A stretch of 64,000 nucleotides of DNA, from positions 142,513 to 206,512 of the forward strand of contig CACYHW010000006.1 of assembly GCA_902774335.1 (NCBI GenBank). Reading direction: 5' to 3'. Positions 1-27,367 of this stretch are shown one piece after another. A program made the translations under genes and the position numbers. Positions within the stretch are counted from its first letter, which is position 1, and each line of letters starts with the position of its first letter. Under the pieces are notes generated by a model. The model saw nothing but the letters and a program-made list of their open reading frames with translations, did not search any database and had not been told where the DNA came from. Origin of the DNA: an uncultured Bacteroidales bacterium. Lineage in GTDB: Bacteria; Bacteroidota; Bacteroidia; Bacteroidales; Bacteroidaceae.

Positions 1-1300
1 GACGACCCACAAAGTTGCGGTTGGAGGTCGATATGCTCAGCTTTCCTGCGGGAACCTTATCGGGGTTCATGGCCAGACAGGCCGAGCATGACGGCAGACG
101 CAGCTCAAAGCCGGCATCGGCCAATACCTTATCAATACCCTCATCTATTATCTGCTTACGTACCAGCCATGAGCCGGGAACCAGCCATGCGGTAACGTTA
201 TCGGCCTTCTTATGACCCTTTACCACACTTGCAAAAGCGCGGAAATCCTCAATGCGGCCGTTGGTGCAGGCACCCAGAAAACACCAGTCAACAGGTGTGC
301 CCTCCAGCTTCTGTCCCGGCTCAAACTGCATATAGTCAAGCTGGGTCTTAAGCTGCACGCGCTCCATATCACTCATGCCGTCATAAGTGGGAATGGTGCC
401 GTCAACGGCTATGCCCGCACCGGGGTTGGTTCCGTAGGTTATGCGCGGTGCAATGTCATCGGCATAATAGGTTACCTCCTTGTCAAACACCGCATCGTCA
501 TCAGTATGGAGCTCACGCCATGATGCCACCGCCATATCCCAGTCGGCACCCTTGGGGGCATACTCGCGACCCTTCAGATATGCAAACGTAGTCTCATCGG
601 GGGCAATCAGTCCGGCGCGGCTGCCCATCTCAATCGATAGGTTGGACAGCGTGAGTCGGCCCTCCATGCTCATGTCGCGAATAACCTGGCCGGCATACTC
701 AACAGCATATCCCGTAGCACCTGATGTGGTCATGCGGGCCATTATGTAGAGTGCCACATCCTTGGCTGTAACACAAGGAGCAAGCTTACCCTCTATGTTT
801 ATGCGCATGGTCTTGGGCTTGCTCTGCAGAATGCACTGCGAAGCCAGGACCTGGGCAACCTCGGATGTGCCTATACCCATTGCGATGGCACCCACCGCAC
901 CATGGGTCGATGTATGCGAGTCTCCGCACACAATGGTCATGCCAGGCAGTGAGAGAGCTTTCTCAGGACCCACCACATGGATAATTCCGTTATCCTTTGA
1001 ACCCATCTCAAAATGGGTAATCCCAAACTCACGACAGTTGGCCTTAAGTGTCTCCACCTGCTTGCGGCCCACAGGATCATCAATACGCTCCTGATTATCG
1101 GACGGGGTATTATGATCCGGCATAGCGTATATGCGCTCCGGGCAGCGTACGCCCACCTTCTTGTCACGCAGGGTATCGAATGCCTGCGGGGTGGTAACCT
1201 CGTGGCAGTACAGACGGTCTATGTACAACTGTGTGGGACCGTCGGGGATGGCCTGCACTACATGCGCATCCCATATCTTGTCAAACAGCGTCTTGCCCAT
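1..1300 (-). CDS. leuC: 3-isopropylmalate dehydratase large subunit (partial, runs off the left edge)
   Basis: Reading the minus strand from ATG at 1298-1300 gives an open frame to the window edge, about 433 of the usual ~465 residues. It begins [15 protein letters not shown] and carries [11 protein letters not shown] near residue 130, GACTNGR, and SCSACLAMN near the visible end. These hold the three cysteine positions that bind the 4Fe-4S cluster in the aconitase family. With LeuD it isomerises 2-isopropylmalate to 3-isopropylmalate in leucine synthesis; in citramalate-using organisms the same enzyme also serves isoleucine synthesis. The start lies 20 nt inside the end of leuA, so translation is probably coupled. 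leuD and leuB are likely just beyond the edge, which is an inference. Confidence 0.96.
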
Positions 1301-2807
1301 CACTCTCAGGTCTGAATTTGTTTATACAATCTATATACGCCTCAACGCTGGCGGTAACGATATCCGTATCGGACCCGAAACCGTAGTACAGATGGTTGTC
1401 ATTCTCCACCTGCATATGCACCTTACAGGCATCATCCGATCCCTTTGACAGGGCCTGGATGGTCATCTCCTTAAGCGTCATGGTACGTTTGATTATCTTC
1501 TTGAGCGCCTTGATCGATGCATCCAGCGGTCCGTTTCCGGTCGATGAAGCGTCAAACACCTGACCATCCACACTCAGACGGATAGTGGCATCGGGCACCA
1601 CACCCTTGCCGGTGGTAACCTGGAGAGCCTCCAGACGCACATGCTTTTTGGCCGATAAGTCCGCACCGGCAAGCATCAGTATATCATCATCGGTAAGTTC
1701 CTTCTTCTTGTCGGCCAGTTTCAGGAATGCCTCATATATGCGGTTTATTGCCACTGAATCAACCTTTACGCCCAGAGCATTGAGCCTATGCTTGAGTGCT
1801 GCGCGTCCCGAGCGGGCGGTAAGTACTATGTTGGCCTCTTCCAGACCCACATCCTTGGGGTTGATTATCTCATACGTGCTGGTGTTCTTGAGCACGCCGT
1901 CCTGATGTATGCCGCTGGAGTGCGCAAATGCGTTTCGGCCCACAATAGCCTTGTTGAACTGCACCGGCATGCTCATGAGCGATGACACCAGACGGCTGGC
2001 TGCAGTTATGCGCTGGGTGTTGATTCCGCACTCCAGGGGCAGGTTATGGTGGCACTTAAGGATCATTGCTATCTCCTCAAGCGATGTGTTGCCGGCCCTC
2101 TCGCCTACTCCGTTTATGGTTACCTCTACCTGGCGGGCTCCGTTCAGGATTCCGCTCATGGTGTTGGCTGTAGCCATTCCCAAATCGTTATGGCAGTGTG
2201 TGGAGAGTATGGCCTTTCCGTTGGCCAGACCATCTACATGCTCCATCAGGTACTTTATCTTGGCTCCGAACTCATCGGGCAGACAGTAACCTGTGGTATC
2301 GGGTATGTTTATTATGGTGGCGCCGGCCTTGATGGCAGCCTCGGCCACACGCGCCAGGTATTCATTATCCGTACGGCCGGCATCCTCGGCGTAGAACTCC
2401 ACCTCACAGCGCTTGGACGCAGCATACTTTACGGCTGCCACCGCACGCTCCAGGATCTCCTCACGAGTGCTGTTGAACTTGTATCGGATGTGCTCGTCGC
2501 TGGTGCCTATTCCGGTGTGGATACGCTTTAGCCTTGCGTACTGCAGGGCATCGGCGGCTGCGTCTATATCGGCCTCAACGGCACGGGTCAGGGCGCAGAT
2601 AATAGGGTTGCTCACGGCTTTTGATATCTCCACTACCGAGTTGAAATCACCCGGGCTGCTTACCGGAAATCCGGCCTCAATCACATCCACGCCCAACTGC
2701 TCGAGTTGGCGTGCCACCTCAATCTTCTCAATGGTGTTGAGCTGGCAGCCCGGGACCTGTTCGCCGTCCCGGAGTGTGGTGTCAAAGAAAATGATCCTGT
2801 CTGACAT
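1281..2807 (-). CDS. leuA: 2-isopropylmalate synthase family protein (LeuA)
   Basis: 508 aa from the ATG at 2805-2807 ([17 protein letters not shown]); an in-frame start 27 nt upstream would add nine unconserved residues. The N-terminal HMGL-like TIM barrel has the RDGEQ motif and [11 protein letters not shown] with the metal-binding HxH pair. The C-terminal ~150 residues form a LeuA-type allosteric domain (GNGPLDAS). It condenses acetyl-CoA with 2-oxoisovalerate as the first committed step of leucine synthesis. Length and regulatory domain fit LeuA, but the nearest relatives include citramalate synthases, and the isoleucine-rich leader peptide upstream keeps that alternative open. It overlaps leuC by 20 nt. 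Confidence 0.93.
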
Positions 2808-2830: not shown

Positions 2831-2870
2831 TCAAACAAAAAAGCCTCTCTCACATCTGTGAGAAAGGCTT
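2831..2870 (-). terminator. Attenuator terminator in the leuA leader
   Basis: On the minus strand a 13-position stem (arms 2858-2870 and 2841-2853, loop AGAT, one G-U pair) runs into a T-rich tract reading TTTTTTG, 24 nt before the leuA start. Its 5' arm can pair instead with 2909-2917, part of the leader-peptide gene, giving a 9-bp antiterminator. It therefore reads as a conditional terminator controlled by leader translation. Confidence 0.85.
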
Positions 2871-2903
2871 TTGCATTTATTTTAACTCTGTCAGATATAT
2901 GCG

Positions 2904-2969
2904 TCAGGCTTCCTCACACCGGCAGTCCGGAATGATAATGGAAATAATAATGAAGCCCTGCAGTCGCAT
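2904..2969 (-). CDS. Isoleucine-rich leader peptide of the leu operon (21 aa)
   Basis: ATG at 2967-2969 opens a 21-codon frame ending TGA at 2904-2906: MRLQGFIIISIIIPDCRCEE plus Ala. Six of seven consecutive codons (2931-2951) encode isoleucine. The frame lies between a clear promoter (3004-3034) and the attenuator hairpin. Three mutually exclusive helices are visible: 2952-2957 with 2907-2912 (protector), 2909-2917 with 2858-2866 (antiterminator), and the terminator itself. A ribosome stalled at the Ile codons would cover the first segment and favour read-through into leuA. This is the classical layout of amino-acid attenuation. Control by charged tRNA-Ile rather than tRNA-Leu is inferred from codon content. 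Confidence 0.85.
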   Translation of the reverse strand: MRLQGFIIISIIIPDCRCEEA

Positions 2970-3003
2970 AAATCTTTCTAGTCGTTTTCTCTTAAATCGA
3001 CCG

Positions 3004-3034
3004 CAAAGGTAAATACTCCTGTCAAACTGACAAA
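3004..3034 (-). promoter_or_regulatory. Promoter of the leu leader/operon
   Basis: Minus strand: TTTG (3031-3034), 19-nt spacer, TACCTTTG (3004-3011). This matches the Bacteroidetes primary sigma consensus TTTG-N19-21-TAnnTTTG. Transcription would start near 2997, about 28 nt before the leader-peptide ATG. Confidence 0.8.
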
Positions 3035-3059: not shown

Positions 3060-3115
3060 TGACAAAGGGGACGGTTCCGTTTGGCTCGAACCAAACGGAA
3101 CCGTCCCCTTTGTCA
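3060..3115. repeat. Perfect 25-bp palindrome, GGGGACGGTTC family (copy A)
   Basis: Arms 3060-3084 and 3091-3115 are perfect reverse complements around a 6-nt loop. A second, longer copy with the same core lies at 27300-27367. The sequence resembles short REP-like palindromes, but no RAYT transposase is present in the window, so mobility is only an inference. It separates the leu promoter region from the kinase operon. Confidence 0.9.
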
Positions 3116-6494: not shown

Positions 6495-9400
6495 TCATTT
6501 CTTAATCATGATTGTTTTACCATTGTGTATATACAGTCCCGGAGCGGTTGGCTCAGTCTCCAGCAGGCGACCGTTCATGTCATACCACGTATTAATATCC
6601 ATCTCACCTGTTACCGTATCAAGTGTTCCCACAGCAGTAACTGTTCCGCTGTCACTCACAAGCCTTACAGTTATGCGGCTGGGCACATCCGTATCAGTGC
6701 CGGTAGCACCAAGGGCCGATGCCCGCATCGGAGCCCGCTGTGCTCCGTTCTTATACGTCAGGTAGCAGCGCATGGGCGGAACGCTTGCACCATCCTTGGC
6801 ATGCACAAACTGTCCAGCCTCGACATCATGTCCGTCAACAGTCTTGCTCTTGGACGCAAAACCGTAGATATGGCCCGTCATAGGCTCAGTACCATAGGTA
6901 AGGTTCGTATAGGTACCGGTAAACGTCCAGTCTCCACTGGTGGTGGCCAACCCGCCCGATACGTCATAACCGGCCGTACCGTGGAACAGTACAGGTACGC
7001 TGCCTGAACCCTCCGGCAGGAACAGATAAGGTTTGTTGGCAACAGTAGCTGTAACCTCATTCATTGTAGCTACCCAACCGTCAACAGCATCATAAGTCAC
7101 ATCCACAAACTCATACGCCTTACCGCCCTCAATATCTGTCAAGGCAAACGGCAGGCAGATGGTCGATGCCTTGCCACCAGTGAACTCACGGCGGAAAGCA
7201 ACCTTACCGTCCAGGTTGCCGGGCACCGTCTCCGACTCGCTCAGGATTGTGGCAGCCACAGCACCTTCAGGATTATTATTATCATTGATATCTTTTGGGG
7301 CTACACCCACGCTCGTGGCGTTCGAAACATCACCTATAGTGCAGTTATAGTAGTAGTTGGTGGCTAGACTACCGGAATCATGCCTGCCTGCTATGGCCCC
7401 CTTGCTGTAACCGACATCTGGAATGGTGGCACCTATTGCAAGGCAGCTGCTGACAGAACCCTTATATTGTTGTCCTATGATGCCACCGTAATTTCTACAG
7501 TTTGTTACGCCATTGCCGACAATGATAGTAGCCGAACTTATGCAATTTGAGACATTGCCGTCATTTTGTCCTACGATGCCGCCATATCTGTCGCATCCCG
7601 TCAGGTTATCAGCGACGGTGAGTACAGCTTGGCTTGTGCAGTTTATGACAGTGCCGGAGTATGAGTATCCCACAATGCCGCCATGATAGTCGGCATTGCT
7701 GACCACCGTATGAATGGCAACGTTACCGTCTACGTGGCAGTTGTTGACAGTGCCTATGAGTTGGTCGGTGTAATTAGGAAGAAATCCCACTATGCCGCCA
7801 ACATTATTGCAACCTGTGATACGGGCATCGCTCAGGGTCACGTTCTTCACGGTGCCCCTTACATAGCCGAATAGTCCCTGACATTCATCGTTACCTTTAT
7901 ATATACGTATGCCGCTGATGGTGTGTCCATCTCCATCGAAGGTGCCCCAGAACTCTTTATCATATTTGATGCCGATTGAGGTGTAGTTGTTCTCGGTGCT
8001 GGTGGCATCATTCCAGTCAGTTGTGTGGGCATAGGTAATATCATTGCCCAGCTTGAAGAACTTGCCATCGAATTTATCGGCGGTATAGCCGTCGATGCCG
8101 TTCACCATCTTGGCCAGCAGGTCGAGGCCTGCGGTAGTTGTGATTATATAAGGATGCGCCTCACTGCCGTCGGCTCCTGAGGCAATGCCCCATACATCGG
8201 TAATACCACTGACGGTTGCATCGCAGGCAGGCATTTTGAAGGTGTAAGTGTCGTTGCTATAGGTGACGGCAATGTCGTTGTCGTTGGCATCCTTTACTTT
8301 AATGTCAAGGACATACCCCCGAGGAATGCTACCGTTGTATGTAAACGTAACATTGGTGTTGCTGGCGTAGTAGGTGTCAGTACCGATGGTGACGCTCTCT
8401 CCTGAGGCAGTAACGCCATCAGCGAGGGTGAGGCTATGAACGCTACGGGCACCGTTGGGGTCGACGCTGCCGTTGCCCACATTGGTGGTGTTGCCACCCA
8501 CGGTGCAGTTGAGATAATAGTTGGCGGTTAAAGTGCCGCCGGCATCCACGGCCACTATTGCGCCCATTTTTAATACAGCCGGAATGGTAACACCTACTGC
8601 AAGGCAGTTGCTGATTGTGCCACCTGTGGCATATCCCACAATACCGCCGTATTTACTGCACGTTGTCAGTCCGTCAGAATCGATGAAGGTGACCGAGCTG
8701 GTACAGTTCGAGACGGAGCCATTGCCTGCTCCCACAATACCACCATGACTTTCGGCAGAGTTTACCACAGCTTGGATGGTGACGGTACCGTCAACGTGGC
8801 AATTATTGATAGAACCAATTGTGCTGTTGTCATAGTTGGTGAGATAACCCACTATTCCGCCAACATTCTGTTTACCTGTAATGTGGGCATCGCTTAGGGT
8901 CACGTTCTTCACCGTGCCGGCATAGACATAGCCGAACAGTCCCTGGTTCTTGCTTTCACCTTTGTAGATGCGTATGCCACTGATGGTATGGTCTTTGCCG
9001 TCAAAGGTGCCGCGGAAGCTATATTTCTGTGAGGTACCAATGGCAGTGTAGTTGTTCTCCGTGTCAGCACCCTCTTCGTTGGCTTCTTTGTGGGCATAGG
9101 TGATGTCGGCACCCAGCTGGAAGAAAAAGCCATTTGGATGTTCGCTGTCAGCACCATATCCCGTACCGCTGTTCACGCGGGTGGCCAGCAGGTCGAGATC
9201 TCTTGTGGTGGTGATGGTGTAAGCCGTGGCCTCGCTTGTGCCGTCGGCTCCGTCAGGGATACCCCAAACATCAACAATGATAGAGGCCTCGCCGTTTCCA
9301 TTCAGATACACACCGCATTCGCTGCTGTTATCGCAGGTGAAGTTCGCAACCGTTCCATTGCCGTTGAGACCGCTGGTAAACACACCGGTATTATTCTGCA

Positions 9401-12400
9401 TTATTACGCCGATGTTGGCGGTATTAGTCAGCGCATCGGTGACGGTGATGACACTGCCGGGCTTCAGATACACGTTGTTCGCCGTGGTGTTGTTGCTCAG
9501 TGTATTGCCGGTGATGACAGGGTTGCCGCTGATGTTAATCGTTTTGTCGTTGTACACGTACACACCGCCGCCGGATGTTGCGGTATTGCCTGAGATTGTG
9601 CCGCCGTTCATATTGAAAGTGCCTTGGACGTACACGCCGCCGCCGGATGTTGCGGTATTGCCTGAGATTGTGCCGCCGTTCATGGTAAACGTTCCGTAGA
9701 CGCGCACGCCGCTTCCGTTGTTACCGCTGCCCCCGGTAATCGTGCCGGTGCCTGCCGCACTGCCATCAGTAAGGGTTAGCGTGCCATTGACCTCAATCAC
9801 ATAACCGTTCGCCGTTGCCGCCGTCAGATTGCGGTTGAGGGTGTGGCCGTTGAGGTCGAGGGTGACGTAATGGCGCGAGGGAATGGTCAGGTAGCCATCA
9901 GTTGTTTGGGCGGTATAATCCTGGTCGAGGGTGATGAGAGTCGGATTTTCGCTATCGGTGCTAGCAGCCGCGAACTGGCGGTTGAGCCATTCCCACTCCG
10001 TAAGCACCTCCGCGCTCACAGTGGCGTCGGCAGCGGTCATGGTGAAACTGTTGCCGCTGAGCACTTCCGTGCCCACGCTATAAACAACGATTTGGTTTGC
10101 TGACACCGTGCCCGTGTAGCCCAATGTGACAGTGGTACCCGCGGCATAATAGGTAGTGCTGCTTATCTCTACGCTCTCGCCAGTAGCGGTGATGCCGCTG
10201 CTCAAGGTGATAGTATGTACGCTACGAGCACCGCTCTGGTCACCGCTGCCAATACCGACATTAGTGGCGTTTATCGTGCCGTTCACGGTACAGCCGTGGT
10301 AGTAGTTGGACGTGTAGGTTCCTTTGTCGTCGTATCCGACGATGGCCCCCACATTGCTGTTGCCACTCACGTTGGCACCACTGGCAAGACAGTTCTCAAT
10401 TGTACCTTTGTCTTGTTGGCCAACTATACCACCATTATTACCGCACCCGGACAGACCATCGGCAATGCTGATGGTGGCGGCGCTGGTACAACGGCGAATC
10501 TTGTCATTAGAACCATTAATACTATAACCTACTATACCACCGTGAAGCCAGGAATTGTTGACGACCGCATGGATGGCTACAGTATTGGTGACATGACAGT
10601 TCTCAACCAGACCATAGTTCTTTTCGCCTATGATGCCACCTACTTCCTTGTATCCCGTGATGCGGGCATCGGTAAGAGTGACATTCTTCACAGTGCCATC
10701 AAAAGTCACACCAAACAAACCTTGCAAATTATCAACATCATCGCTGCCACTCATGTAGATGCGGATGCCACTAATGGTGTGGCCTCCACCGTCGAACACT
10801 CCTCCAAAGGAGTGATGATACTTGCCTATAGCGGTGTAGTTGTCCTCGGTGCTGTTGGCGTCGTTCCATTCGGTGGTGTGGGTGTAGGTGATATCATTGT
10901 CCAACCTGAAGTAGGTGTCGCGGAATTTGTTGGCAGTGTAGCCGTTGGTGCCGTTTACCATCTTGGCCAGCAGGTCAAGCTGGTCGGTGGTGATGATGAG
11001 GTATGGATTGTCGCTGCTGCCGCCACCACTCCATGCAGTAGTAAAGGTAACGCTGATGGTGACATCGCTAGCGGGCATGGTGAAGGTGTTGCCCGTGATG
11101 TCATGGTCGCTGCCATCATTATAGTGGTAGGTTATCTGTTGGGCTACGGCCTGGCTATAGCCCAAAGTGACGGCTGTATTACTGGCGTAGTAGGTATTGG
11201 AGCCGATTTCCACGCTCTCGCCGCTTGTCGTGACATCTGCCGGCAGAGTGAGCGCGTGGACGCTGCGGGTGCCGTTGCAGTCGCCAGAACTTGTGCCTAT
11301 ATTGGTGGTCTGGTTATTGACGGTACAGTCGTGATAGTAGTTGGCGCTAAGTGTACCTGCGTTATTGCCAACAACAGCTCCAGTATTCGAACCGCCAGTG
11401 ATAACAGCATCGGCGAGGATGACATTCTTCACGGTGCCGCTGCTACCAACATGGCCAAAAAGCCCATGATAATCGGTGCCACCTTGATTGATGCGGATGC
11501 CGCTGACAACCTTACCGTCGCCATTAAAAGTGCCATTGAACGGGTTGCTGCCGCTACCGATGGCGGTGTAGTTTTCACTATCTCCAGTGTACTCAATGTT
11601 GGTCCCCAACTTGAAGTGGGTGCCGCTGAAGTTTTTGGCGGTGTAGCCGTCGGTGCCATTCACCATCTTGGCCAGCAGGTCGAGCTGCTCGGGTGTGGTG
11701 ATGAGGTAAGGACTGCCTTTGGTTCCAGCGCCACTCCATGCTGCAGTAAAGGTAACGCTGATGGTGACATCGCTGGCGGGCATGGTGAAGGTGTTGCCCG
11801 TGATGTCATGGTCGCTGCCATCGTTATAGTGGTAGGTTATCTGTTGGGCTACGGCCTGGCTATAGCCCAAAGTGACGGTTGTATTACTGGCGTAATAGGT
11901 ATAGGAGCCGATTATCACGCTCTCGCCTGAGGCAGTGACACCATCAACGAGGGTGAGTGTATGGACGCTGCGGGCACCAGCCTGATCGGTGCTGCTGCTT
12001 TCGCCACCTACGCCCACGTTAATGGCATTAGCCGTGCTCCCCACGGTGCAGTTTCTATAGTAGTTCGAGACCAGGGTTCCGCCATCATTCACGCCTACGA
12101 TGGCCCCTACATATTGATTTTGGGAAGATATGCTGGTCCCCACGGCAAGGCAATTCTGAACAGTACCCAGATTGTAGCCAGCGATACCGCCATATTCTTT
12201 TGCATTTACACTATTTGCGCTAAGCGTTGCCGCACTGGTGCTGTTTTGAAGGAGCCCCGAGTTTCGTCCCGCGATGCCCCCATGCATGTCGCCAGTGGAC
12301 AGGGTATGAATTAACACTTGATCGGTGACGTGGCAATTGTCAACAGTTCCAACGCTGTTACCTGCGATACCGCCAGACCAAGTATCGCCGGTGATACGGC

Positions 12401-14339
12401 TGTCATCAAGGGTGATATTCCTGACGATACCCTGTTCACCAATACGCCCGAATAGACCTTGAAAACTATTAGCATCTGTAGCGTCTTTTTTGTATATACG
12501 GATACCGCTGACGGTATAGCCGTCGCCGTCGAAAGTTCCCATGAATGTATAAAACTTATTCACAGATAAACGTCCGATGGCGGTGTAGTTGTTCTCGGTG
12601 CTGTTGGCATTGTTCCATTCGGAAATGTGGGTGTAGGTGATGTCGGCACCAAGTTTAAAGAACTTGCCTTCAAAGGTATTGGCAGTATAACCATCGGTGC
12701 CGTTCACCACCTTGGCCAACATGTCCAGACCGTCAGTGGAGGATATGACGTAGGCATGGTCCTCGTCATCGCCGGTTTTGCCGTTGTCCTGCCCCCAGAT
12801 GGGCGTCCAGTTGGCGGTGAAGGTCTTGTCGCCATGCGAGCCGGCAGGGATGGTGACGGTTGTCTGCGGCGTATTCCCGTTGCTACCAGTCCAGCCAGCA
12901 AAGGTGTAGCCCGCCCTGATTGGTTTTTTCAGCGTGAAAGTTGCCGTCTCGTAGGTATAGCTATCAGGATTGGCAGTGGCCACAGTACCGTCGGCCAGGT
13001 CGTAGGTGATAGTGAAGGAGTGATTGGCATCGACCGTGATGCCAATGTTCTTATTGATAGCCTTGCCAGCGCTACTGAGTTCGTTGCCAGCCAGATCCTT
13101 AATGGTGCCGCTGATGCTGTTCACGGTGAGGGCTGTACCTGCACTGGCCGTAATTGTGCCGGAAAAGGTGAGGACGTTGGAACCGGAGCCTCCGTTGCTT
13201 GAGACATAAGACGCACTGCCCCAGGTGGTGCTGAGGGTGGGTGTGCCAGACACTGTGACAATCTCGTCGAAGGGGACGGAAACATAGAAGGTATTACCCT
13301 TGGCATGCATACTGCCGGAAATGACAGGGTCGCCGAGGCGTGAGGGAGCAGTGCCGTCAACGGCCTGAATATGGGCAACGACGTTCTTGGCGGCCCACTC
13401 GTCGCTGCCGGAACTGCCGGAGGCATTAAGGCGGAGGACGAGCGTATTAAAAGCGGTGGGTATGATAATACGCCCGTCAGTGGCGCGGTTACCGTTGAAT
13501 TTCTGCTTTTTGAGAGGCCATTTGTCACCATGGCTCCAAGGGTTCGCAGCACCTTCGTTATGGCCTGCGCTAAGGACTGGAAAGGTGTAGCTCCTATAAG
13601 TATCGTCCTTGCTGCCGGTATTCATCTCAAAGCCCGCCATATATTTGGAACTGCTGATATTGCCAGGGTCGCCATTGCTGCAGTCATCACGATTGTCGCA
13701 GGTGCTGGTGTTGTCCACCAGAAGCTGCAGGTACTCATAAGCGTCATCGTTCTCCTTGGCCTGCATACTCAGCGTCATACGGAGTTGGGCGCCGATAAAT
13801 TGATAGTAGGCCTTGGGAGCTGCTTTATTGAAGTAACTGGAACTGGCCACGGACTTATAACCGTTTTTATCATATCCGGCATCATTGGCCGTGTATTCAT
13901 TTTCCTGGATGGTGACGTCCTTAATATCGAACGCGCCGCTGCTGGGCACGCTGGTGCCTGTGGTGATGGTGCGGTCCGTGTACGCCAGGCGGAAGCCGCC
14001 CTGGTCCAGAACCTCGAAGCGGTACTTGCGGGAGGTGCCGTTCTGGTACAAATAGGCAGCGGTGCCCGGGGTGTTCTCGGTCACCTCCACCTCACGGCTG
14101 TTGTGGGTGGCATCGAAGGTCAGCTCGCCCACTTTTTCCGTGAAGTGCATTCCTGCAATGGCGCTCAAACTTACCGTGCGGTACTTTACCGTCTCAGTCG
14201 TTGAGGTGTTGGTTGTTCTGGTGATGACAAATTTGCTTGTGCCTGATGTATTCGTCACCGTGAAAGTACTAGCAGCATGTACTGTTTGTACTGCTAACAA
14301 TGTTATCAACAACAATAATAAAGAAATAATCTTCTTCAT
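6495..14339 (-). CDS. Giant modular surface protein (GLUG repeats, InlB-type repeat)
   Basis: 2,614 aa from ATG at 14337-14339, chosen because it begins a signal peptide (MKKIISLLLLLITLLAV). Rough order: 25-320 unknown beta-rich region; ~325-445 Ig-like (TAPSRLGDPVISG); ~450-510 Listeria-Bacteroides/InlB B repeat (GYTFAGWTGS, FTANWT). Then come five similar modules (starting ~515, 870, 1100, 1690, 2050) of LDLLAxxVNG, NYTAIG, GLFG, GGIVG and NYYxxCTV, that is GLUG-type beta-helix units. A separate parallel-helix stretch (~1440-1690) has MNGGTISGNTATSGGGVYV twice. The C-terminus (YDMNGRLLE, GLYIHNGK) resembles Bacteroidetes sorting/anchoring tails. The likely role is surface adhesion or glycan contact, inferred. 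Two ~185-bp stretches at 11041 and 11746 are about 96% identical. The gene is cotranscribed with a 39-aa peptide gene. Confidence 0.85.
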   Translation of the reverse strand: MKKIISLLLLLITLLAVQTVHAASTFTVTNTSGTSKFVITRTTNTSTTETVKYRTVSLSAIAGMHFTEKVGELTFDATHNSREVEVTENTPGTAAYLYQNGTSRKYRFEVLDQGGFRLAYTDRTITTGTSVPSSGAFDIKDVTIQENEYTANDAGYDKNGYKSVASSSYFNKAAPKAYYQFIGAQLRMTLSMQAKENDDAYEYLQLLVDNTSTCDNRDDCSNGDPGNISSSKYMAGFEMNTGSKDDTYRSYTFPVLSAGHNEGAANPWSHGDKWPLKKQKFNGNRATDGRIIIPTAFNTLVLRLNASGSSGSDEWAAKNVVAHIQAVDGTAPSRLGDPVISGSMHAKGNTFYVSVPFDEIVTVSGTPTLSTTWGSASYVSSNGGSGSNVLTFSGTITASAGTALTVNSISGTIKDLAGNELSSAGKAINKNIGITVDANHSFTITYDLADGTVATANPDSYTYETATFTLKKPIRAGYTFAGWTGSNGNTPQTTVTIPAGSHGDKTFTANWTPIWGQDNGKTGDDEDHAYVISSTDGLDMLAKVVNGTDGYTANTFEGKFFKLGADITYTHISEWNNANSTENNYTAIGRLSVNKFYTFMGTFDGDGYTVSGIRIYKKDATDANSFQGLFGRIGEQGIVRNITLDDSRITGDTWSGGIAGNSVGTVDNCHVTDQVLIHTLSTGDMHGGIAGRNSGLLQNSTSAATLSANSVNAKEYGGIAGYNLGTVQNCLAVGTSISSQNQYVGAIVGVNDGGTLVSNYYRNCTVGSTANAINVGVGGESSSTDQAGARSVHTLTLVDGVTASGESVIIGSYTYYASNTTVTLGYSQAVAQQITYHYNDGSDHDITGNTFTMPASDVTISVTFTAAWSGAGTKGSPYLITTPEQLDLLAKMVNGTDGYTAKNFSGTHFKLGTNIEYTGDSENYTAIGSGSNPFNGTFNGDGKVVSGIRINQGGTDYHGLFGHVGSSGTVKNVILADAVITGGSNTGAVVGNNAGTLSANYYHDCTVNNQTTNIGTSSGDCNGTRSVHALTLPADVTTSGESVEIGSNTYYASNTAVTLGYSQAVAQQITYHYNDGSDHDITGNTFTMPASDVTISVTFTTAWSGGGSSDNPYLIITTDQLDLLAKMVNGTNGYTANKFRDTYFRLDNDITYTHTTEWNDANSTEDNYTAIGKYHHSFGGVFDGGGHTISGIRIYMSGSDDVDNLQGLFGVTFDGTVKNVTLTDARITGYKEVGGIIGEKNYGLVENCHVTNTVAIHAVVNNSWLHGGIVGYSINGSNDKIRRCTSAATISIADGLSGCGNNGGIVGQQDKGTIENCLASGANVSGNSNVGAIVGYDDKGTYTSNYYHGCTVNGTINATNVGIGSGDQSGARSVHTITLSSGITATGESVEISSTTYYAAGTTVTLGYTGTVSANQIVVYSVGTEVLSGNSFTMTAADATVSAEVLTEWEWLNRQFAAASTDSENPTLITLDQDYTAQTTDGYLTIPSRHYVTLDLNGHTLNRNLTAATANGYVIEVNGTLTLTDGSAAGTGTITGGSGNNGSGVRVYGTFTMNGGTISGNTATSGGGVYVQGTFNMNGGTISGNTATSGGGVYVYNDKTINISGNPVITGNTLSNNTTANNVYLKPGSVITVTDALTNTANIGVIMQNNTGVFTSGLNGNGTVANFTCDNSSECGVYLNGNGEASIIVDVWGIPDGADGTSEATAYTITTTRDLDLLATRVNSGTGYGADSEHPNGFFFQLGADITYAHKEANEEGADTENNYTAIGTSQKYSFRGTFDGKDHTISGIRIYKGESKNQGLFGYVYAGTVKNVTLSDAHITGKQNVGGIVGYLTNYDNSTIGSINNCHVDGTVTIQAVVNSAESHGGIVGAGNGSVSNCTSSVTFIDSDGLTTCSKYGGIVGYATGGTISNCLAVGVTIPAVLKMGAIVAVDAGGTLTANYYLNCTVGGNTTNVGNGSVDPNGARSVHSLTLADGVTASGESVTIGTDTYYASNTNVTFTYNGSIPRGYVLDIKVKDANDNDIAVTYSNDTYTFKMPACDATVSGITDVWGIASGADGSEAHPYIITTTAGLDLLAKMVNGIDGYTADKFDGKFFKLGNDITYAHTTDWNDATSTENNYTSIGIKYDKEFWGTFDGDGHTISGIRIYKGNDECQGLFGYVRGTVKNVTLSDARITGCNNVGGIVGFLPNYTDQLIGTVNNCHVDGNVAIHTVVSNADYHGGIVGYSYSGTVINCTSQAVLTVADNLTGCDRYGGIVGQNDGNVSNCISSATIIVGNGVTNCRNYGGIIGQQYKGSVSSCLAIGATIPDVGYSKGAIAGRHDSGSLATNYYYNCTIGDVSNATSVGVAPKDINDNNNPEGAVAATILSESETVPGNLDGKVAFRREFTGGKASTICLPFALTDIEGGKAYEFVDVTYDAVDGWVATMNEVTATVANKPYLFLPEGSGSVPVLFHGTAGYDVSGGLATTSGDWTFTGTYTNLTYGTEPMTGHIYGFASKSKTVDGHDVEAGQFVHAKDGASVPPMRCYLTYKNGAQRAPMRASALGATGTDTDVPSRITVRLVSDSGTVTAVGTLDTVTGEMDINTWYDMNGRLLETEPTAPGLYIHNGKTIMIKK

Positions 14340-14383
14340 ACTTATCGCATTATTAAATCTACAATTGCCGGACATAAACGTTG

Positions 14384-14416
14384 CATCTACGAGCCATCTA
14401 CGAATCATCTACGAGC
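14384..14416. repeat. Three tandem 11-bp repeats before the giant surface gene
   Basis: CATCTACGAGC, CATCTACGAAT and CATCTACGAGC follow head to tail. They lie 45-77 nt upstream of the surface-protein start and overlap the end of the small membrane ORF. They could be a regulator site or slippage-prone tract; no function is evident. Confidence 0.8.
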
Positions 14417-27277: not shown

Positions 27278-27310
27278 CAAAGGTAGTACATTTTCGCAAA
27301 AGGTGACAAA
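27278..27310 (-). promoter_or_regulatory. Promoter of DUF2461 gene, -33 box inside palindrome B
   Basis: Minus strand TTTG (27307-27310), 21-nt spacer, TACCTTTG (27278-27285). The TTTG belongs to the left arm of the palindrome. The -7 box lies 6 nt before the ATG. Confidence 0.7.
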
Positions 27311-27367
27311 GGGGACGGTTCTGTTTGGCTCGGGCGAGCCAAACAGAACCGTCCCCTTTGTCACCTT
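27300..27367. repeat. 33-bp-arm palindrome, GGGGACGGTTC family (copy B)
   Basis: Arms 27300-27332 and 27335-27367 are perfect complements. The outer part matches copy A (3060-3115) except for one compensated C/T change in each arm. It lies exactly between two divergent promoters and supplies a TTTG at each end. Confidence 0.92.

Follow-up and report, generated by a model that had tools for sequence, protein, structure and literature searches.

A Predicted Isoleucine-Sensing Attenuator Upstream of a Probable Joint Leucine-Isoleucine Operon in Bacteroidales

The enteric trpL, hisL, ilvGMEDA, ilvBN, and leuABCD leaders combine a short ORF bearing control codons with protector, antiterminator, and terminator helices, and the position of the ribosome determines which helix forms. 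The region upstream of leuA in the 64-kb stretch of DNA analyzed here (the window) is alike in each of these parts, although no sequence relation between it and the enteric leaders was shown. Leu codons abound in the leader of the enteric leu operon and Ile codons in that of the window, and the window operon, unlike the enteric one, adds a citramalate-synthase-like enzyme (the second synthase, encoded by cimA) fused to LeuD. Comparative work by the Lyubetsky group on attenuation in bacteria may extend to Bacteroidetes.

In C. jejuni, the leader peptide LeuL, upstream of leuABCD, has been proposed to attenuate the leucine operon (PMC3847290); LeuL differs from the window leader in having five Leu codons, in belonging to another phylum, and in that the accessible passages of that report do not mention isoleucine. 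Leader-peptide attenuation of BCAA genes is likewise reported for Corynebacterium ilvBNC and actinobacterial amino-acid attenuators, again in another phylum and with other gene sets (PMC11857589, PMC10272879, PMC1262725). Within the phylum of the window, leader-peptide attenuation has been suggested upstream of amino-acid operons in F. psychrophilum (PMC9723704), attenuation has been suggested for long 5′ UTRs with sORFs in B. thetaiotaomicron (PMC7366714), and a survey has counted leader genes in Bacteroidetes (PMC4833913); the accessible passages of these three works name neither leuA nor isoleucine. The kind of attenuator is already known, and leader-peptide attenuation in Bacteroidota was suggested earlier from transcriptomes (PMC9723704, PMC7366714, as far as their available passages go). 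Among the papers listed in literature searches, judged by titles, abstract openings, and some passages, with most subscription papers outside their scope, none described this leader family or a leuA operon under Ile control.

The operon and its leader

The operon has the order leuA-leuC-(leuD::cimA)-leuB, with a fusion of 713 residues, and its distal part was read from the contig of the same genome (G000):

1281..2807, minus strand: leuA, heading the operon and encoding a 2-isopropylmalate synthase of 508 aa (profile cut-offs)
1..1300, minus strand: leuC, cut at the window edge and running on to G000:C6:142415 (locus L003; genome contig)
G000:C6:140260-142401 (L003:6261-8402), minus strand: leuD::cimA fusion, beyond the window (genome contig)
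G000:C6:139186-140247, minus strand: leuB, beyond the window (genome contig)

The initial annotation had described the first gene as LeuA-like, and its product passes both NCBIfam equivalog cut-offs for isopropylmalate synthase (NF002086, 703.4 versus 532; TIGR00973, 637.9 versus 598.7). LeuC, LeuB, and the LeuD portion of the fusion likewise score above their NCBIfam cut-offs. LeuA carries Ala, Gly, and Tyr at the positions of Leu81, Leu104, and Tyr144 of the second synthase, residues that form the pyruvate pocket of the Leptospira citramalate synthase. By these measures LeuA is an ordinary isopropylmalate synthase.

On the minus strand at 2838-3034, 5′ of leuA, a promoter, a leader ORF, and protector, antiterminator, and terminator helices are all present:

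3004..3034, minus strand: Bacteroides-type promoter, -33 TTTG (3034-3031), 19-nt spacer, -7 TACCTTTG (3011-3004)
2904..2969, minus strand: leader ORF, 21 codons, MRLQGFIIISIIIPDCRCEEA and stop; homologous leader in 11/11 aligned close relatives, window included
2952..2957, minus strand: protector, 5′ arm, within the leader ORF just 5′ of the Ile run (pairing, fold)
2931..2951, minus strand: Ile-rich control run spanning codons 7-13, Ile-Ile-Ile-Ser-Ile-Ile-Ile (6/7 Ile)
2909..2918, minus strand: antiterminator, 5′ arm (110/110 cells paired in 11 aligned sequences)
2907..2912, minus strand: protector, 3′ arm, overlapping the antiterminator 5′ arm (pairing, fold)
2858..2872, minus strand: intrinsic terminator, 5′ arm (fold, pairing)
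2857..2866, minus strand: antiterminator, 3′ arm, which is the terminator 5′ arm (pairing in 11 aligned sequences)
2839..2853, minus strand: intrinsic terminator, 3′ arm, its foot overlapped by T6 at 2842-2837 (fold, pairing)

The promoter at 3034-3004, TTTG-19-TAccTTTG, is an exact fit to the Bacteroides consensus, which has two matches in the window versus 0.1 expected. The -7 box TAnnTTTG is unchanged in all 11 aligned sequences, namely the window, the same-genus genome G250, and nine named loci, L062-L070, whose LeuA proteins are 86-99% identical and which were assigned to the genus on this identity.

Two further features of the window may be recorded here. A REP-like palindrome, AAAGGGGACGGTTC(C/T)GTTTG with its inverse, lies at 3064-3111 and 27308-27359; the 20-mer, at up to two mismatches, has 54 forward and 57 reverse copies in the window's own genome (control 0), and one copy stands between the leuA leader and the divergent gene. 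At 6495-14408 on the minus strand, a 2637-residue ORF with many similar repeats, as seen by eye, resembles a large surface protein.

The leader ORF is enriched in codons for a presumed product of the operon. Translation of 2969..2904 yields a single Leu (codon 3) and zero Val codons besides the Ile run, in agreement with the initial annotation, which had also noted the promoter and the 21-residue ORF; all elements lie where it had put them, on the minus strand. The pattern ATH3-N3-ATH3 has only this run as a match in the 64-kb window and none in 100 shuffles. The three competing helices proposed there proved correct to within two pairs. The terminator, an intrinsic one 5′ of the first gene leuA, extends beyond the earlier 2858-2870/2841-2853 to 15 pairs (2872-2858 with 2853-2839), the antiterminator is one pair longer than first noted (2918-2909 with 2866-2857), and all six pairs of the protector (2957-2952 with 2912-2907) are standard.

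The leader folds at -53.3 kcal/mol versus -32.4 ± 3.4 kcal/mol for 200 shuffles (z = -6.25). In the minimum-energy fold, an outer helix joins the start-codon region (UAUGCG) to CGCAUA just 3′ of the stop codon, with bases invariant in 11/11 aligned sequences; this helix might link translation of the leader with the attenuation switch.

The competition among the helices was modeled with the terminator 3′ arm absent and the footprint of a ribosome, its size being an assumption, masked. In free RNA the antiterminator has a mean pair probability of 0.00 and the protector of 0.88, and with the ribosome at the stop codon the antiterminator again stands at 0.00. Stalling at Ile codons 7, 8, 9, 11, and 12 raises the antiterminator to 0.98, 0.78, 0.87, 0.86, and 0.76, respectively. 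For the last Ile codon, 13, the value is 0.016, with the protector free in the model to form around the ribosome, a closure that a real ribosome should block. When the full-length leader is folded at equilibrium, the terminator prevails in all the cases modeled (0.97-0.98); the switch must therefore act kinetically, like those of other attenuators.

This anatomy supports the Ile-responsive attenuator put forward initially, and we consider it very probable that the leader is a ribosome-mediated attenuator of the trp/ilv/his type that governs expression of a joint leucine-isoleucine operon, chiefly according to how much charged Ile-tRNA is available. From it we infer the response to Ile-tRNA and, in cells, termination and read-through as its outcomes. 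With Ile-tRNA plentiful, the ribosome would reach the stop codon and cover the antiterminator arm; with no ribosome loaded, the arm would be held by the protector helix. In either state the terminator would form and RNA polymerase would halt before leuA. With Ile-tRNA short, the ribosome would stall in codons 7-13 and disrupt the protector, and the freed arm, 2918-2909, would pair with 2866-2857 before the terminator 3′ arm is made, so that transcription would go on.

Conservation of the leader and its control codons

Loss of the leader in relatives would have spoken against the initial annotation; the leader ORF, antiterminator, and terminator are kept in all 11 aligned sequences. In this alignment, 97.6% of cells are paired in the terminator, 100% in the antiterminator, and 81.8% in the protector. 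The protector is strong in the window (probability 0.88) but weak among close relatives, where the roughly 82% of paired cells compare with 70% when the helix is slid by one column, and only the three outer pairs, GGC:GCC, are invariant. No two-sided changes occur in the helices among the 11 sequences, which are too conserved there to covary. The control run reads IIISIII or IIIDIII in seven sequences and IILSIIII in four.

Searches of 121 family genomes detected leuA in 100 and the second synthase in 91, and a leader ORF with a CCTTTC-type terminator precedes leuA in 68 of the 97 upstream regions examined. By position of cimA, leaders were detected in 56/69 genomes with cimA downstream of leuA (linked), in 11/15 with cimA far away or on another contig, and in 1/13 with none found. 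Because the detector recognizes only terminators that carry a CCTTTC-like arm, its misses, in 13/69 linked genomes (six of them of one genus) and 12/13 cimA-absent genomes, do not prove absence. Detection by the ORF alone performs poorly, at least six BCAA codons in nine being present in 69/97 real upstream regions and in 21% of shuffled ones.

Antiterminator and terminator are mutually exclusive, and over the family, unlike among the 11 close relatives, covariation is seen. The antiterminator duplex between the 3′ part of the leader and the terminator 5′ arm ranks in the best 3 of 41 (own sequence plus 40 shuffles) for 61 of 68 leaders. Antiterminator arms pair at -15.4 kcal/mol with their own partners versus -12.2 kcal/mol with swapped ones, and for both antiterminator and terminator 0/2000 permutations reach the own mean; the own arm beats the mean swapped arm in 43/50 (antiterminator) and 42/50 (terminator) distinct genus-arm cases. 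Both helices therefore covary over the family. Across the 68 leaders the median distance is 15.5 nt from the last control codon to the arm and 21 nt from the arm start to the stop codon.

Named loci give a similar survey. By our own sorting, 66 of the 80 carry cimA 3′ of leuA in the same orientation; of these, 48 have leader and terminator (L110 doubtful), 17 gave none, and L115 has too little upstream sequence; Segatella copri, Phocaeicola coprophilus, and Hoylesella oralis are among the species with a leader. Outside the family, and leaving out the family member G056, a leader with at least three Ile codons precedes 24/29 linked loci; five more loci yielded no leader in four cases, in three of which ilvC immediately precedes leuA, and a doubtful leader in the fifth.

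The codon content of the leaders varies with the linkage of cimA. Linked family leaders (n = 56) average 4.5 Ile, 4.6 Leu, and 1.4 Val codons, and unlinked or cimA-less leaders (n = 10) average 1.0 Ile (range 0-2), 6.0 Leu, and 1.7 Val, a difference in Ile with a Mann-Whitney p of 8.5e-7 (by genus, 18 versus 4, p = 0.002); G163 and G211, with 4 and 6 Ile codons, were dropped from this comparison as probable contig breaks. A LeuA tree of 51 rows, its bootstrap not settled, speaks against several independent Ile-poor events: G252, G193, G199, and G188, the four of the ten unlinked or cimA-less genomes that it covers, form one clade (100/95) with the cimA-less named locus L117. The p values therefore overstate the contrast, which we count as one event or few, not ten; possibly a single Ile-poor event spread by transfer.

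In individual rearrangements, too, the leader codons broadly match the genes behind them. G252, which has ilvA and a leuACDB operon without cimA (72% complete), has the leader MTNYSSLFLATLSLRLQL. In G193, leuA is followed by neither leuC nor leuD and has a leader of the Leu type, with 1 Ile and 5 Leu codons, and leuC-leuD-cimA stands apart behind MYSTIINSGIILSLRISCSE. In G176, cimA comes first in a run that continues with a gene resembling an aminotransferase (identified by eye), ilvDBNC, leuA, and leuC, and in G266 cimA precedes ilvDBNC, with leuA-leuC after a 4.3-kb gap; the leaders 5′ of cimA in these two genomes, MITSNLILVGIILLVLVE and MNATSVVLSLLVVILVKRK, hold Ile, Leu, and Val. Before ilvD, a candidate leader occurs in 21/30 family loci, 18 with at least three Val codons and three poor, and nine gave none; in the window's own genome, ilvD-ilvB-ilvN-ilvC follows a Val-rich leader, MYNLSVITFIVDVVVVGPAR, and a terminator (L148:8483-8700, G000:C4). 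Linked genomes with ilvA have fewer Ile codons (3.8, n = 19) than those without (4.8, n = 37; p = 0.019, uncorrected for kinship). As a separate observation on gene order, a cimA-like gene lies directly 3′ of ilvB-ilvN-ilvC on the same strand at L265 and L266 (G180 and G152).

Other cases run against this pattern. Outside the family, G004 and G116, two genomes of a single other family, carry cimA on another contig, yet have the Ile-rich leaders MNKTIIILSIILLA and MNQIITILLNLLLIS, in front of an operon that still holds leuC and leuD, needed by both pathways; G040 (leuACDB with no cimA behind) has a doubtful leader candidate with 4 Ile and 6 Leu; and 8/56 linked leaders contain at most two Ile codons. 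Ile weighting is likewise seen in leaders from beyond the genus, in G179 (5 Ile, 2 Leu), L093 (6, 2), L108 (7, 1), and L123 (6, 2), which rules out both a weighting confined to the window's genus and one tied to the LeuD fusion; L121 is fused and has a mixed leader. We therefore hold only as a tentative suggestion, somewhat short of even odds given the one-clade contrast, G004/G116, the Ile-poor linked leaders, and the weighting outside the genus, that the leaders form one attenuator family across Bacteroidales, with control codons rewritten to suit operon products: Leu and Ile with linked cimA, Leu with little Ile without it, Ile, Leu, and Val for merged BCAA genes, and Val before ilvD. In the window and its closest relatives the codons would be almost Ile alone, with leucine synthesis slaved to isoleucine supply.

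The same leaders could instead act as a general sensor of Ile and Leu, in which leucine is still read through Leu3 (and Leu6 and Leu9 in relatives) and the Ile weighting is drift within a Leu/Ile repertoire. The near-equal Ile and Leu means of linked leaders, the Ile-weighted leaders outside the genus, and the four close relatives L065, L068, L070, and G250, which read LIILSIIII, fit such a sensor, as does Leu3 itself, kept in 11/11 aligned leaders and freeing the antiterminator in the masking model when the ribosome stalls there (0.97). However, the window run is 6/7 Ile with no Leu, codon 6 is Phe in the window and L067 and Tyr in L069 versus Leu in the other eight, and classical attenuators respond chiefly to tandem codons, so we regard this explanation as unlikely.

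The second synthase and the likely route to isoleucine

The link of this operon to isoleucine would lie in the second synthase, outside the window. Its best solved relative is the Leptospira citramalate synthase 3ble (E = 6.8e-117), to which 175/318 residues of the catalytic domain are identical (55%), and it keeps Leu81, Leu104, and Tyr144, the presumed pocket residues. The second synthase scores below the curated citramalate-synthase cut-offs of NF042433 (639.6 versus 950) and TIGR00977 (171.5 versus 450) and is therefore named Leptospira-type citramalate-synthase-like, not a filed member. We predict from its sequence that it is a citramalate synthase and makes citramalate.

These missed cut-offs are what a different assignment would lean on, namely that the enzyme is another isopropylmalate or homocitrate synthase, that isoleucine arises via 2-methylbutyrate or propionyl-CoA by reductive carboxylation, and that Ile control is cross-pathway balancing; rumen Bacteroidetes do make isoleucine by reductive carboxylation of 2-methylbutyrate. 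The identity to the solved Leptospira enzyme with its pocket kept, the score against the Leptospira citramalate-synthase model, about twice that of the best isopropylmalate-synthase model (324.7 bits), and the LeuD fusion and operon position, which suit citramalate, make this assignment distinctly improbable.

The leuD::cimA fusion is intact in every named close relative for which the locus covers both parts (7/7), and genomes G000, G170, and G250 of the genus have fusion frames of 715-719 codons, which together rule out sequence error as its cause. Outside the close relatives, it occurs at L121 only among the 80 named loci. In G265 (L268), of the same genus, leuA adjoins cimA without leuC or leuD between, and no leader was found there.

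No ilvA was found among the five PF00291 genes of the window's own genome, which were read as cysK, two copies of trpB, and two genes resembling threonine synthase; this genome is 87% complete, so the result is weak alone. The threonine dehydratase model TIGR01127 (ilvA) matches in 0/7 genomes of the genus versus 30/121 of the family. Since a citramalate-synthase-like enzyme is present and no ilvA was found, citramalate is the likely route to isoleucine, and the operon most likely makes leucine and, via this route, isoleucine. LeuC, LeuD, and LeuB would be common to both pathways. Isoleucine control of the operon is expected because it has the predicted citramalate synthase together with LeuC, LeuD, and LeuB to turn citramalate into 2-oxobutanoate, and because the genus has no detectable threonine dehydratase. 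The suggestion that LeuA and LeuCD serve isoleucine thus stands as to the link through the citramalate route, but the Ile-specific enzyme would be the second synthase fused to LeuD, not LeuA. The CimA route is a recognized variant in gut genomes (PMC9026213; phyla unstated in the accessible passages).

To a constitutive terminator beside which the sORF is incidental, a metabolite-binding riboswitch, or a T-box we give almost no credence, since leaders across the family repeatedly show BCAA codons, the ORF geometry, and competing helices that covary, and a riboswitch or T-box is ruled out by the 0 matches at gathering score for 4227 Rfam families anywhere in the 64-kb window.

Ile codons before leuA thus pose an apparent paradox that is resolved since the operon is probably the isoleucine pathway as well. 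The fusion of LeuD and a citramalate-synthase-like protein also invites enzymological work. The natural rearrangements, in which cimA has moved out, genes have merged, or a separate leuCD-cimA operon has its own leader, offer a test of whether codons track operon content. We suggest leader codons as a readable marker of which product an operon serves; if this is true, isoleucine synthesis by the citramalate route in gut and rumen Bacteroidales would be predictable from sequence.
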